Positions 2,926 to 28,723 of a stretch of DNA of 35,276 bases are shown piece after piece (positions within the stretch are counted from its first letter, which is position 1; every line of letters starts with the position of its first letter). The DNA lies in assembly GCA_015231515.1 (NCBI GenBank), contig JADGBM010000007.1:25669-60944 (forward strand), written 5' to 3'. The position numbers were made by a program, and so were the translations under genes. This DNA is from Desulfobulbaceae bacterium. GTDB lineage: Bacteria; Desulfobacterota; Desulfobulbia; Desulfobulbales; VMSU01. A model generated the notes under the pieces. The model saw only the letters and a list, made by a program, of their open reading frames with translations, did not search any database and was not told the DNA's origin.

Positions 2926-4173
2926 TTAATGCCCCTTAGCCATTAGTTTGATACGTTCAACAATGGAACGTGGTATCCATAAAATCGTATGAAGTCCAAA
3001 GAAGCTGAATGTACCGACAAGCAAACCGGTCATGGCCCAGAAAGTGTAAAAAAGATACGGGTATTTTTCTTTGTCGTGAACAGAGTGGGTAGCATGGGGC
3101 AAATAAGTAGTAAAGCTTTGGTTCGCCTTTGGATGGCACACTGAACAGGTCTGTACAATATTGGCAGTATTGATTTTTGAGGCCGGGTTTTGAATGGGAA
3201 GGATGTCATGGGAACCATGACAATCAGAGCATTTCGCCGTTTGTTCTCCTCCCCAAAGCATGGATGCCCTGCCGTGATAGGTTTGAAAGTATGTCTCTGT
3301 TTCATGGGCATGGCAGTTGTTGCACTGCTCAGCTATAAGCAGGCGAAAATCTTTATTGGTGACGCGTGAGATGGTGTGTGCATTATGGCAGTCAATACAA
3401 ACAGGTAATTTCTTATCTGTTTTTGTAACTGTTGGGCTGTGCACTGAATCTTGAAATTTCTCAGCAATTCCAACATGGCACCCTTTACAGGTTTCAGTGA
3501 TATTGTCACGATTAACACTTGAGTTTGGTGAGGATGCCTTCTGAACATTGTGTCCAGTATGACAGCTTGAGCACACCGCTGTGACGATCAGGCCATCTTC
3601 GAAGAGGCCTTTGCCATGAATCGACATTGAGTAGTTTTGAACAATGTTGTGTTCGCTCAGGTCATGTGTGGAGGTCATATCAGAACCTTCACGGTGACAG
3701 CGGCCACAGGTAAAGGGAATATTCATCGGGTAGGTTGTGGAACGCCGATCTTTTGGTGAAAGGATGCCGTGTTTTGTGTGGCAGTCCTGGCACTTGGGAG
3801 CCATTGCATCATTTTTTTCAATGGCCGCTTCGCCATGGGCGCTTTGCATGTATGTTTCACCGATTGCATCGTGACAATCATTACAATTCACCGGCGACAG
3901 GGGGAATGGGTGTTCCTCTCCCTCAACATCCGCATCAACATGACAGGAGACGCAGCCGTTTTCAGCATGTACCGTATCTTTATAGGTATCTATGTCGACA
4001 TACAGGCTTATAGTTTTCCCATTTTTTTCGGTAGTCAGCTCAACGTCAGTGTGACAACCAATGCAATCCTCATTGGTTAAGGCGTATGCGTTACTCCATG
4101 ATATAAATAGGGCCAGCAGCATGAAGCGAATAATCGCCCCAGCTCCTAAATGTTTTGGTACATTCTTGATCAT
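2926..4173 (-). CDS. Membrane-anchored multiheme cytochrome c (11 CxxCH motifs)
   Basis: 415 residues. An N-terminal signal sequence (hydrophobic stretch FMLLALFISW, likely cleaved after NAYA) is followed by eleven CxxCH heme-attachment motifs spread over residues 37 to about 348, then a C-terminal hydrophobic helix (YTFWAMTGLLVGTFSFFGLHTILWI) with a short basic tail. The heme domain would sit in the periplasm, anchored to the inner membrane. The heme pairs and scattered extra histidines resemble doubled-CxxCH and NrfB/cytochrome c3-type electron carriers. The start has GGAGG nearby. It is first in a two-gene operon with the cytochrome b, resembling the b plus multiheme-c pairing of Geobacter inner-membrane quinol oxidases such as CbcL, although there the two parts are fused. 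Physiological acceptor unknown. Confidence 0.93.
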   Translation of the reverse strand: MIKNVPKHLGAGAIIRFMLLALFISWSNAYALTNEDCIGCHTDVELTTEKNGKTISLYVDIDTYKDTVHAENGCVSCHVDADVEGEEHPFPLSPVNCNDCHDAIGETYMQSAHGEAAIEKNDAMAPKCQDCHTKHGILSPKDRRSTTYPMNIPFTCGRCHREGSDMTSTHDLSEHNIVQNYSMSIHGKGLFEDGLIVTAVCSSCHTGHNVQKASSPNSSVNRDNITETCKGCHVGIAEKFQDSVHSPTVTKTDKKLPVCIDCHNAHTISRVTNKDFRLLIAEQCNNCHAHETETYFQTYHGRASMLWGGEQTAKCSDCHGSHDILPIQNPASKINTANIVQTCSVCHPKANQSFTTYLPHATHSVHDKEKYPYLFYTFWAMTGLLVGTFSFFGLHTILWIPRSIVERIKLMAKGH

Positions 4174-4352: not shown

Positions 4353-4386
4353 CAAGAAAAAATGAATTGGTATTCATTTTTTCTTG
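4353..4386. promoter_or_regulatory. Long palindromic operator between the cytochrome operon and the 102-aa gene
   Basis: A perfect inverted repeat with 15-bp arms (4353-4367 and 4372-4386) around a 4-base centre TGGT. Its core at 4361-4378 is, on the opposite strand, AATGAATACCAATTCATT, the identical 18-mer found at 26782-26799 in front of the FadR-like tetR gene. It lies 38-63 bases upstream of the 4416 gene and about 180 bases upstream of the cytochrome c start. No clear -35/-10 pair could be assigned in this 242-base intergenic region. The hairpin is A/T rich and lacks a T-run beyond the stem, so an operator is favoured over a terminator. Confidence 0.75.
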
Positions 4387-4415: not shown

Positions 4416-4724
4416 GTGCAACAAGAGTCTCACCGAAATGCAAAACCCGTCCCTCTCTACACGAAGATAGGCTGGATAGCTGCCTGGGTAGTTATGTCAG
4501 TGCTCATATTAATGATTTTGAGAAACTGCATGACTTCCGTGAAATATGGAAGCCAAACGGAGATTGGCACGGTGGATTCGTACTATCAGTTGGGGCTGAA
4601 GGAGGGGCAACTGGGTAAAGATTTTTTTCTGCCCGGTGATGTGATGAACAACCCTGTCCTGCGTAAATCCTATACCAAAGGTTACAGGGAGGGAATGGAT
4701 GCCAGAAAACTCCCTGAAAAGTAG
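4416..4724 (+). CDS. Small membrane-anchored protein of unknown function
   Basis: 102 residues starting at GTG, chosen because GGAGG at 4404-4408 sits seven bases before it. One transmembrane helix (about residues 18-37, IGWIAAWVVMSVLILMIL) follows a short basic cytoplasmic N-terminus. The rest is soluble and has Gly-Glu patterned segments: YYQLGLKEGQLGKDFFLPGD and later SYTKGYREGMD. I do not recognise a named family. It diverges from the cytochrome c/b operon across the palindrome at 4353-4386, so the two are probably co-controlled. An overlapping frame at 4298-4618 lacks a binding site and is taken as a shadow. Confidence 0.75.
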   Translation: MQQESHRNAKPVPLYTKIGWIAAWVVMSVLILMILRNCMTSVKYGSQTEIGTVDSYYQLGLKEGQLGKDFFLPGDVMNNPVLRKSYTKGYREGMDARKLPEK

Positions 4725-26131: not shown

Positions 26132-26731
26132 TCAGGGTCCGCACTCGGGCCGAGCTATAATTCCGTCTAGGAAGATACTGCTGATTGTTTCGGCTGTTTG
26201 TTCGAGGGTGTACGTATGTGAGGGAGTGAGAATCCAGAGGCGCGAAACCTCATCAAGGGCGCCAAAGAAGGCTCTCTTTACAATGCCTGGGAGTAGGTTT
26301 GGGCGAAAGACGTTGTTTTTTTGACCGAGGTGAATGATTTCCGAAATAATATTCACGTAGTCAGCAAACTGATTAACTCTGTACTCTTTGACATGCTCGC
26401 TGCTCTGCCGTAACTCCATCTGAAGAACCTCTGCGAGTTCTTTCTTGTTAATCACTAACTGTAAATGATGTGTCGCAAAGATGTGCAGCATTTCGCGTGG
26501 GTCAGTGACTTTTGCGATAGCCTCTTTAATCTCTATGATAAGTTTGCCGATCTCTTCTTCAAAAAGTGTAAGAAGAATGTCGTATTTATTGTTGAAATAC
26601 AGGTAGATGGTTCCGTCCGCAACTTTGGCCTCTTTCGCTATGTCAGATATCCTGGCGTTAAAAAATCCCTTGTGCCCAAAAACTTTAATGGCTGAGTTAA
26701 GGATTTTTTGATGCTTATCGGCCTTCTTCAT
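26132..26731 (-). CDS. TetR-family regulator, FadR/YsiA-like
   Basis: 199 residues. An N-terminal TetR helix-turn-helix (ILNSAIKVFGHKGFFNARIS, then IAKEAKVADGTIYLYFNNKYDILLTLF) is followed by a helical ligand domain of the type in acyl-CoA-sensing Bacillus FadR, with LQMELRQSSEHVKEYR and FGALDEVSRLWIL. The recognition helix region VADGTIYLYF is, as I recall it, shared with Bacillus FadR, which represses fatty-acid oxidation genes and is released by long-chain acyl-CoA. A near-consensus promoter with a palindrome at its start point precedes the gene, so it probably represses itself. Ligand is inferred, not shown. Confidence 0.88.
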   Translation of the reverse strand: MKKADKHQKILNSAIKVFGHKGFFNARISDIAKEAKVADGTIYLYFNNKYDILLTLFEEEIGKLIIEIKEAIAKVTDPREMLHIFATHHLQLVINKKELAEVLQMELRQSSEHVKEYRVNQFADYVNIISEIIHLGQKNNVFRPNLLPGIVKRAFFGALDEVSRLWILTPSHTYTLEQTAETISSIFLDGIIARPECGP

Positions 26732-26779: not shown

Positions 26780-26801
26780 AAAATGAATACCAATTCATTT
26801 T
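26780..26801. promoter_or_regulatory. Operator of the TetR regulator
   Basis: AATGAATACCAATTCATT at 26782-26799, extended by A/T pairs to 9-bp arms (26780-26788 and 26793-26801) around ACCA. The centre lies at the expected transcription start of tetR. The same 18-mer, in opposite orientation, is the core of the palindrome at 4353-4386. The ATGAAT/ATTCAT half-sites resemble those known for Bacillus FadR. Confidence 0.8.
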
Positions 26802-26804
26802 TTT

Positions 26805-26833
26805 ATGATAAATTGTGGCTAGTTAACTGTCAA
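26805..26833 (-). promoter_or_regulatory. Sigma-70 promoter of tetR
   Basis: On the minus strand, TTGACA (26833-26828) and TATCAT (26810-26805) are exactly 17 bases apart: a perfect -35 and five of six at the -10. The operator begins four bases downstream of the -10, covering the predicted start point, the usual place for a self-repressor site. Confidence 0.8.
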
Positions 26834-26950: not shown

Positions 26951-28723
26951 ATGAAAGTTTTGGTTGTTGGCTCTGGAGGGAGAGAACATGCGTTGGTTTG
27001 GAAGTTAAACAGTAGTGAAAAAGTTGATCAGGTGTTTTGTGCACCAGGTAATGCTGGGATACGCTCTATTGCTACTTGTGTTGATATCGGAGCTAACGAA
27101 ATTGCAAAGCTCTCTGCCTTTGCCGAAAGTGAAGGGGTTGACCTTACCATTGTCGGCCCTGAAGAACCGCTGACGCTTGGTATTGTTGATTATTTCCAAA
27201 AGAAGGGGCAGCGTGTTTTTGGCCCTAGTCAGAAAGCGGCGGCCTTGGAAGGCAGTAAGGTGTTTATGAAAGATCTTCTGCAAAAATATGCTATTCCTTC
27301 CGGCTTTTATGGAGTTTTTACTGATCGTGACCAAGCTGTCGCCTATATTCATGAAAAAGGTGCGCCGATAGTTGTCAAGGCCGACGGTTTGGCTGCCGGT
27401 AAAGGAGTTATTGTTGCCGCTACAATTGATGAAGCTGTCGGTGCAGTTGATCTGATACTCCTTGATAAGGTTTTTGGTGCAGCTGGAAGCAGGGTTGTTA
27501 TTGAGGAGTTCCTGCCTGGTGAGGAGGCCTCGTTTCTCGCTTTTACAGATGGGAAGACTGTTCTGCCATTGCCCACTTCGCAGGATCATAAGGCTGCGTA
27601 CGATGGCGATAAAGGCCCTAATACCGGCGGGATGGGGGCCTATTCTCCGGCCCCGGTAGTCACAGCTGAACTCCACAAGCAAGCTATGGAAAAGATTATG
27701 ATTCCAACGGTAAAGGCCCTGGCAGCAGAAGGCGCTCCCTATAAGGGGATTCTTTACGCTGGACTAATGATTAAAGACGGTGTTGCCAAGGTTTTAGAGT
27801 TTAACTGCCGGTTTGGTGATCCTGAAGCACAGCCGCTTTTGATGCGTGTTAAAACTGATATTGTCGATATCGTCGAAGCGATTATTGATGACAGACTTGA
27901 CGAGGTTCAACTTGTAATTGATCCTCGTCCAACAGTATGTGTTGTTCTTGCTTCTGGTGGTTATCCTGGCTCCTATGAAAAGGGTAAGGTTATTCATGGT
28001 CTTAATAGTGACTTCGGTGAAGATCTGGTTGTGTTTCATGCAGGTACGGCCTTGAAGGATGGTCAGGTTGTTAGCGCTGGAGGACGGGTTCTGGGCGTTA
28101 CTTCAATAGCCGATACGCTTGAAAAGGCAATTAGTCGGGCCTATGCTGCTGTCGCTAAAATCAGTTGGGACGGGTGTTTCTATCGTAAAGATATTGGTCA
28201 AAAGGCCTTGGTTCGAGCTTTCAGCTCTACCGCTCAGGTTGGCATTGTTCTGGGTAGTGATTCGGACCTGCCTGTCTTTCAGGGCTGTATTGACTTTTTA
28301 AAGAAGATGGATGTTCGATTTGAGCTGATTGTAGCTTCTGCACATCGGACACCCGAGCGCGCCGGAGCGTATGCTGAAACAGCGCGACAAAGAGGCTTAA
28401 AAATCATTATTGCCGGTGCTGGTATGGCGGCTCATCTTGCAGGCGTATTGGCGGCACACACAACAGTACCGATTATTGGTGTGCCGATTGACTCCTCCTC
28501 ATTAAAGGGACTCGACGCATTATTGGCAACTGTTCAAATGCCCCCCGGCGTACCGGTGGCGACTATGGGGATTGGCAAGTCTGGTGCAAAAAATGCCGCC
28601 ATTCTAGCCTGTCAGATTTTGTCTGTTGCAGACAGTTCTCTTGTCGATAAATTAGCTGATTTCAAGGCTGAGATGGCTCGAGAGGTTGAAGAAAAATCTA
28701 AAAGAATAGAGATATGCTGTTAG
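26951..28723 (+). CDS. purD-purE: PurD-PurE fusion: GAR synthetase / N5-CAIR mutase
   Basis: 590 residues. Residues 1 to about 421 are phosphoribosylamine-glycine ligase: MKVLVVGSGGREHALVWKL, VGPEEPLTLGIVDYF, KADGLAAGKGVIVA (ATP-grasp), NTGGMGAYSPAP, EFNCRFGDPEAQ and the closing YRKDIGQKAL. After a linker of about eight residues, from residue 430 to the end is a class I PurE: VGIVLGSDSDLPVFQ, ASAHRTPERA, IAGAGMAAHLAGVLAAHT, and ALLATVQMPPGVPVATMGIG. The two act at separate steps of purine synthesis (2 and 6). The join is clean and in one frame, so it is a real fusion. Start supported by AAAGGGG. Confidence 0.96.
   Translation: MKVLVVGSGGREHALVWKLNSSEKVDQVFCAPGNAGIRSIATCVDIGANEIAKLSAFAESEGVDLTIVGPEEPLTLGIVDYFQKKGQRVFGPSQKAAALEGSKVFMKDLLQKYAIPSGFYGVFTDRDQAVAYIHEKGAPIVVKADGLAAGKGVIVAATIDEAVGAVDLILLDKVFGAAGSRVVIEEFLPGEEASFLAFTDGKTVLPLPTSQDHKAAYDGDKGPNTGGMGAYSPAPVVTAELHKQAMEKIMIPTVKALAAEGAPYKGILYAGLMIKDGVAKVLEFNCRFGDPEAQPLLMRVKTDIVDIVEAIIDDRLDEVQLVIDPRPTVCVVLASGGYPGSYEKGKVIHGLNSDFGEDLVVFHAGTALKDGQVVSAGGRVLGVTSIADTLEKAISRAYAAVAKISWDGCFYRKDIGQKALVRAFSSTAQVGIVLGSDSDLPVFQGCIDFLKKMDVRFELIVASAHRTPERAGAYAETARQRGLKIIIAGAGMAAHLAGVLAAHTTVPIIGVPIDSSSLKGLDALLATVQMPPGVPVATMGIGKSGAKNAAILACQILSVADSSLVDKLADFKAEMAREVEEKSKRIEICC

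Follow-up and report, generated by a model that had tools for sequence, protein, structure and literature searches.

A FadR-like TetR regulator and a conserved palindrome predicted to govern sulfite reduction and energy conservation in Desulfobulbales

Described regulators and the FadR-like protein

Little is known about the control, in sulfate reducers, of dsrAB and dsrMKJOP, genes central to a major biogeochemical process. In Desulfovibrio, the CRP/FNR-family regulator HcpR acts mainly on hcp-frdX and controls sat and apsAB, but not dsrAB (PMC545781), and Rex is a repressor tied to sulfate reduction that acts at sat in Desulfovibrio vulgaris, as cited in PMC11451228. In the sulP clusters of Desulfobacteraceae, a TetR-type repressor has been described with a predicted 16 bp palindromic operator near the sulfate transporter (PMC11887813). 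No regulator of dsrAB was found in the open-access literature searched, which, for Desulfovibrio, places Rex at sat and HcpR at both sat and apsAB, and no earlier report of the regulon described below was found there.

The system reported here resembles HcpR in being a comparative-genomic predicted regulon touching sulfate reduction (PMC545781), whereas its regulator belongs to a different protein family, the TetR family, and aprBA carries no site, so that the sites do not correspond to an HcpR regulon. As with Rex, a repressor would be tied to sulfate reduction, but Rex belongs to another protein family, responds to NADH and recognizes another operator. The sulP-cluster protein of sulfate reducers is likewise a repressor of the TetR type for which a palindromic operator has been predicted, whereas by description it is local and proposed for sulfate uptake, not for dsr or ATP synthase (PMC11887813).

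We analyzed a 35,276-nucleotide stretch of the genome of a Desulfobulbaceae bacterium, referred to as the window. The regulator is a protein of 199 amino acids encoded at 26132–26731 on the minus strand, assigned as a FadR-like TetR-family regulator from family profiles, predicted fold and orthologues. The helix-turn-helix profile TetR_N (PF00440) matched with 49.1 bits against a gathering threshold of 24, which places the protein in the TetR family, and the FadR/YsiA-type ligand domain (PF08359) matched with 80.5 bits against 21. The NCBIfam FadR equivalog NF053878 matched with 174.1 bits (E 2.7e-51), below its cut-off of 200 bits, and the protein is therefore called FadR-like. The closest PDB entries to the predicted model (pLDDT 84) are those of Bacillus FadR (5gp9, 5gpa, and 3whb; TM 0.83–0.87), which was also the best match in the sequence comparison.

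The likeness to Bacillus FadR (YsiA; TetR family; PDB 3whb/3whc, 5gp9/5gpc) extends from the fold to the sequence (32–34% identity), with a near-identical recognition region, VADGTIYLYF, common ELRQSN and FGxxDE segments, and ligand domains that align end to end. The half-site element TGAAT is also common to both systems. The Bacillus FadR operator consensus, which we take to be TGAATGAMTANTCATTCA, has a spacer of 8 bp, which also occurs in many tetR operators of Desulfobulbales. Conversely, the main operator spacer here is 4, the equivalog score is 174 as against 200 bits, and the genes predicted to be controlled are those of dsrAB, dsrMKJOP, ATP synthase, and complex I, instead of beta-oxidation genes. 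Sites pointing to control of beta-oxidation genes, as in a Bacillus-type FadR, were seen only in other orders, and not in the source genome or its order.

Palindromes, flanking genes, and promoter geometry in the window

In agreement with the earlier note, the 18-mer AATGAATACCAATTCATT occurs exactly at two positions in the window, 4361–4378 (minus strand) and 26782–26799 (plus strand), and no further copy was found there at three or fewer mismatches. The chance level at this threshold was 0.11 matches in shuffles, and two matches arose in 2 of 100 shuffles. The two copies mark the predicted operators O1 and O2, neither of which is assigned to a strand. O1 (4353–4386) has the perfect 15-bp arms that had been described for it, CAAGAAAAAATGAAT-TGGT-ATTCATTTTTTCTTG, around the core AATGAAT-N4-ATTCATT at 4361–4378. 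The asymmetric 4-base centre, to which the earlier note pointed, is indeed identical in both window copies, but it is nearly free among 82 strict sites (defined below) from relatives, and was dropped as a feature of the motif.

The open reading frames bear out the placement of O1 between a cytochrome c/b operon and a gene for a small membrane protein. On the minus strand lies the predicted target, a multiheme c-type cytochrome of 415 amino acids (2926–4173; 11 CXXCH; Pfam Cytochrome_C7/Cytochrom_c3_2), followed, in what is predicted to be the same operon, by a membrane cytochrome b of 283 amino acids (1925–2776) that is weakly like formate dehydrogenase gamma or b561, with Pfam scores below the gathering cut-off. 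The divergent gene that shares O1 (4416–4724, plus strand) encodes 102 amino acids and belongs to no family; a comparable small open reading frame adjoins the site in the loci of the genomes G002, G008, and G001. The site was kept upstream of the window-type cytochrome in all nine own-family genomes with a full-length orthologue, and rarely beyond the family, which supports the proposal of the earlier note that the regulator would control this cytochrome module. A hemerythrin-like protein, identified by reading, is encoded at 1417–1824, adjoining the cytochrome c/b operon.

O2 (26782–26799) precedes the start of tetR by 51 bp and overlaps the predicted transcription start of that gene. The predicted tetR promoter, TTGACA-17-TATCAT (26805–26833, minus strand), matches at 11 of 12 positions and has the same geometry in orthologues, and the operator begins just past its -10 box. 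Across the order, the sites at both tetR and dsrA follow closely on a TTGACA/-10 promoter and overlap the start predicted from it, and the same arrangement is visible at dsrA and ppsA of the source genome. An operator in this position fits repression. In the source genome, the dsrC and tusA sites come before the likely -35 box, a position that is not in keeping with simple repression, so that activation or a dual role is possible there. A 590-residue open reading frame divergent from tetR (26951–28723) begins with a PurD-like part followed by a PurE-like segment, and several relatives (G036, G044, and G053) also have a PurD-like gene in divergent orientation to tetR.

The palindrome might also be a bidirectional terminator or a chance A+T-rich inverted repeat, since the hairpin formed by O1, followed by a T tail, was flagged as terminator-like and the window contains seven perfect 7-4-7 palindromes, compared to about two expected for even base composition. 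However, the O1 stem has only three G-C pairs, and the motif stands at promoters, not at gene ends, with a fixed spacer in dozens of genomes, which makes this reading exceedingly improbable. For O1 itself, the conservation of the motif upstream of start codons rules out a terminator.

Sites in the source genome and in Desulfobulbales

The 3.4-Mb assembly of the source genome was searched by pattern, and the stretches around the sites were then read. At two or fewer mismatches, 33 near-copies of the 18-mer were found, compared to 14 for a reversed control pattern. Most of the copies with two mismatches fall within genes and were discounted as probably due to chance, whereas about a dozen sites are set at promoters. 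In addition to O2 and O1, these are found before dsrAB (DsrA, 580 bits), before RsbRD-dsrM (dsrMKJOP; DsrM, 524 bits), before dsrC, twice before the ATP-synthase b/b'-delta-alpha operon (atpF'F-H-A), once ahead of a second ATP-synthase cluster, of atpI type, where the site falls at the hemL end, before tusA, which is divergent from a YeeE-type transporter gene, before a multiheme cytochrome pair, before ppsA, and, more weakly, before a gene that reads as QmoA. The dsrMKJOP operon begins with a gene for an RsbRD_N-domain protein (L021:5085-5633, G000:C49), as do the site-bearing dsrM operons of ten relatives. The aprA match of the source genome (G000:C18:2985-4910) carries one internal TAA, which may be an assembly error or the true end.

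The earlier note had taken the two window copies for a two-site regulon through which the FadR-like protein would couple fatty-acid oxidation to the window cytochrome module, and had named fatty-acid genes as the finds of a genome scan that would support it. The number two holds for the window only, and none of the sites in the source genome was found at a recognizable beta-oxidation gene, including its sole acyl-CoA dehydrogenase gene. Acyl-CoA dehydrogenases are few in most of Desulfobulbales, and an exact site was found at 0 of 30 such loci in the order. The link between fatty acids and electron transfer is thus not supported for the source organism. The likeness of the protein to FadR, and the occurrence of the motif, outside Desulfobulbales, before FadB-type, EtfB, FadD, and Fe-S oxidoreductase genes, speak for the two-site fatty-acid model, which nevertheless appears improbable given the sites found here.

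The conservation of the core motif, TGAAT-N4-ATTCA, was counted at one or fewer mismatches upstream of genes in 58 genomes, mostly of Desulfobulbales, the order of the source genome. The core was found upstream of tetR in 28/30 loci, of dsrA in 28/29 readable loci, and of the ATP-synthase b-subunit operon in 28/30 loci, and, for tetR loci from named genomes, in 70/80 as compared to 17/1415 control windows. These results confirm that the tetR gene carries the palindrome, and sites are kept at both the orthologous cytochrome and the tetR genes, where the earlier note would have counted a lack of conservation against its reading. Conversely, aprBA had a site in 0/30 loci and sat in a single Desulfobulbales genome, so that sulfate activation was rejected as part of the core regulon, and dsrC, at which sites are patchy and confined to some genomes, was rejected as a universal target.

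The spacing of the half-sites is constrained. At dsrA, 31 of 36 sites were exact at a spacer of 4 and two or fewer at any other spacer, whereas at tetR, 50 of 81 were exact at a spacer of 4, 29 of 81 at a spacer of 8, and almost none otherwise; the signal is thus lost when the spacer is swapped. Many tetR operators are composite (L333, L353, L374, L396, and L408), with TGAAT and ATTCA elements that fit a 4-bp as well as an 8-bp spacer and look like two overlapping dimer sites, whereas the dsrA operators almost all have the 4-bp spacer only.

The strict pattern WMTGAATNNNNATTCAKW occurred 200 times in the 58 genomes, compared to three times for reversed controls. A site was assigned to a target when a reference gene start lay within 450 bp. 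In this unbiased count, 37 of the 82 strict sites in the order were near a reference sulfate, energy, or tetR gene, the other 45 having no assignment to a reference gene. The assigned targets were RsbRD-dsrM (10), ppaC (7), nuoA (6), tetR (5), and dsrA (3), with one site each for tusA, sat, sulP, atpI, atpF, and pyruvate:ferredoxin oxidoreductase, and no FadB-, EtfB-, or FadD-type gene was found among the targets of the 82 sites. Overall, the finding of the earlier note is real and larger than first described.

Co-occurrence, ligand, and other orders

A close TetR orthologue, one per genome and 52–80% identical, was present in about 53 of the 58 relatives. In an association drawn from 198 genomes of the phylum, strict sites were found in 60/70 genomes with a close TetR protein, as compared to 14/105 without one (Fisher P ~1e-22, a value that ignores relatedness); ten genomes with a close TetR protein thus had no strict site. 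One complete genome of the same order (G019, a single 2.77-Mb contig) has neither the TetR gene nor the sites at dsrA and atp, whereas three congeners with TetR keep the dsrA site. G019 is a natural loss of the regulator.

The Rex consensus operator is TTGTGAA-N4-TTCACAA. This sequence is unlike the motif, the motif tracks the FadR-like TetR protein across the phylum, nearly all close TetR orthologues have a site at their own promoter, and the order has only one close TetR homologue per genome, all of which argue against a different factor, such as Rex or a second TetR protein, occupying the palindromes with tetR merely one of its targets. Such a factor would be in keeping with the control of sat by Rex in Desulfovibrio vulgaris (PMC11451228) and with the persistence of sites in genomes without detectable TetR. 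A small genome of 1.7 Mb (G026) has exact core sites at dsrA and atp (G026:C17, G026:C15; L314, L320) and contains dsrA, with no detectable TetR and no aprA, and two drafts (G034 and G048) have sites with no TetR match. On balance, another factor seems unlikely, though slightly less so than the two-site fatty-acid model.

The palindrome thus very probably belongs to a FadR-like autoregulator governing sulfite reduction and energy conservation in the order, as judged from the sequences compared. The motif, its conservation, the promoter positions, the co-occurrence with TetR, and the identities of the targets were computed, and binding by TetR, repression, and the ligand are inferred. The autoregulated, probably repressing, protein would act as a global regulator in Desulfobulbales, with a regulon of dsrAB, RsbRD-dsrMKJOP, ATP synthase, complex I, inorganic pyrophosphatase, and tusA, to which sat, sulP, and dsrC would be added in some species and the window cytochrome c/b operon in the source family. 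A TetR homodimer, or two overlapping dimers, bound at TGAAT-N4-ATTCA just past the -10 box would block transcription, and acyl-CoA or a related CoA thioester would free the DNA of TetR, so that sulfate respiration would be expressed when oxidizable carbon is present.

The common recognition region and ligand-domain motifs of Bacillus FadR, together with the absence of a conserved cysteine from the orthologues, make a CoA thioester the leading guess for the ligand; a thiol switch was set aside for lack of that cysteine. That a FadR-type acyl-CoA sensor is the master switch of sulfate respiration across the order, with carbon-donor status, in the form of acyl-CoA, directly gating sulfite reductase and its electron-transfer complex as well as ATP synthase and complex I, is put forward tentatively, at a little under even chances. 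A variant of the same regulon, which does not exclude it, would have the protein sense the status of the electron donor or of sulfur in place of an acyl-CoA, or activate at some promoters. The scarcity of acyl-CoA dehydrogenases in most of the order and the position of the dsrC and tusA operators favor this variant, whereas the end-to-end alignment of the ligand domain with that of Bacillus FadR and the motifs in common speak against it, and a persulfide switch, like a thiol switch, is unlikely; we regard the variant as possible, at roughly one chance in three.

In other orders of the phylum, 41 strict sites included 11 before FadB-type, two before EtfB, two before Fe-S oxidoreductase, and one before FadD genes, so that, judged by target identity, the predicted link to fatty acids does hold for this motif there. 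As regards the ancestry of the regulator, the guess of the earlier note was thus a good one. In the regulator tree, the proteins from Desulfobulbales group as a single clade within those of other members of the phylum, including family f29, in which the motif stands before FadB-type genes. This nesting agrees with vertical inheritance and a switch of targets, and less well with a separate paralogue. That the operator belongs to a former beta-oxidation repressor that has become, in Desulfobulbales, an autoregulator of sulfite reduction and energy conservation appears likely; the regulon would have arisen by rewiring of a repressor whose ancestral type is still seen in other orders.

The analysis supplies one protein by name, the sequence of its predicted operator, and a list of targets, which are testable in cultivated Desulfobulbales. 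The regulon also appears to be a case of rewiring, in which a conserved regulator and a conserved motif serve sulfate respiration in one order but fatty-acid oxidation in certain others. In family f16, outside the order, sites are found between the divergent sat and aprBA genes (L491 and L497) and near an RnfC-like gene, suggesting that sulfate activation may have come separately under a regulator of the same motif.
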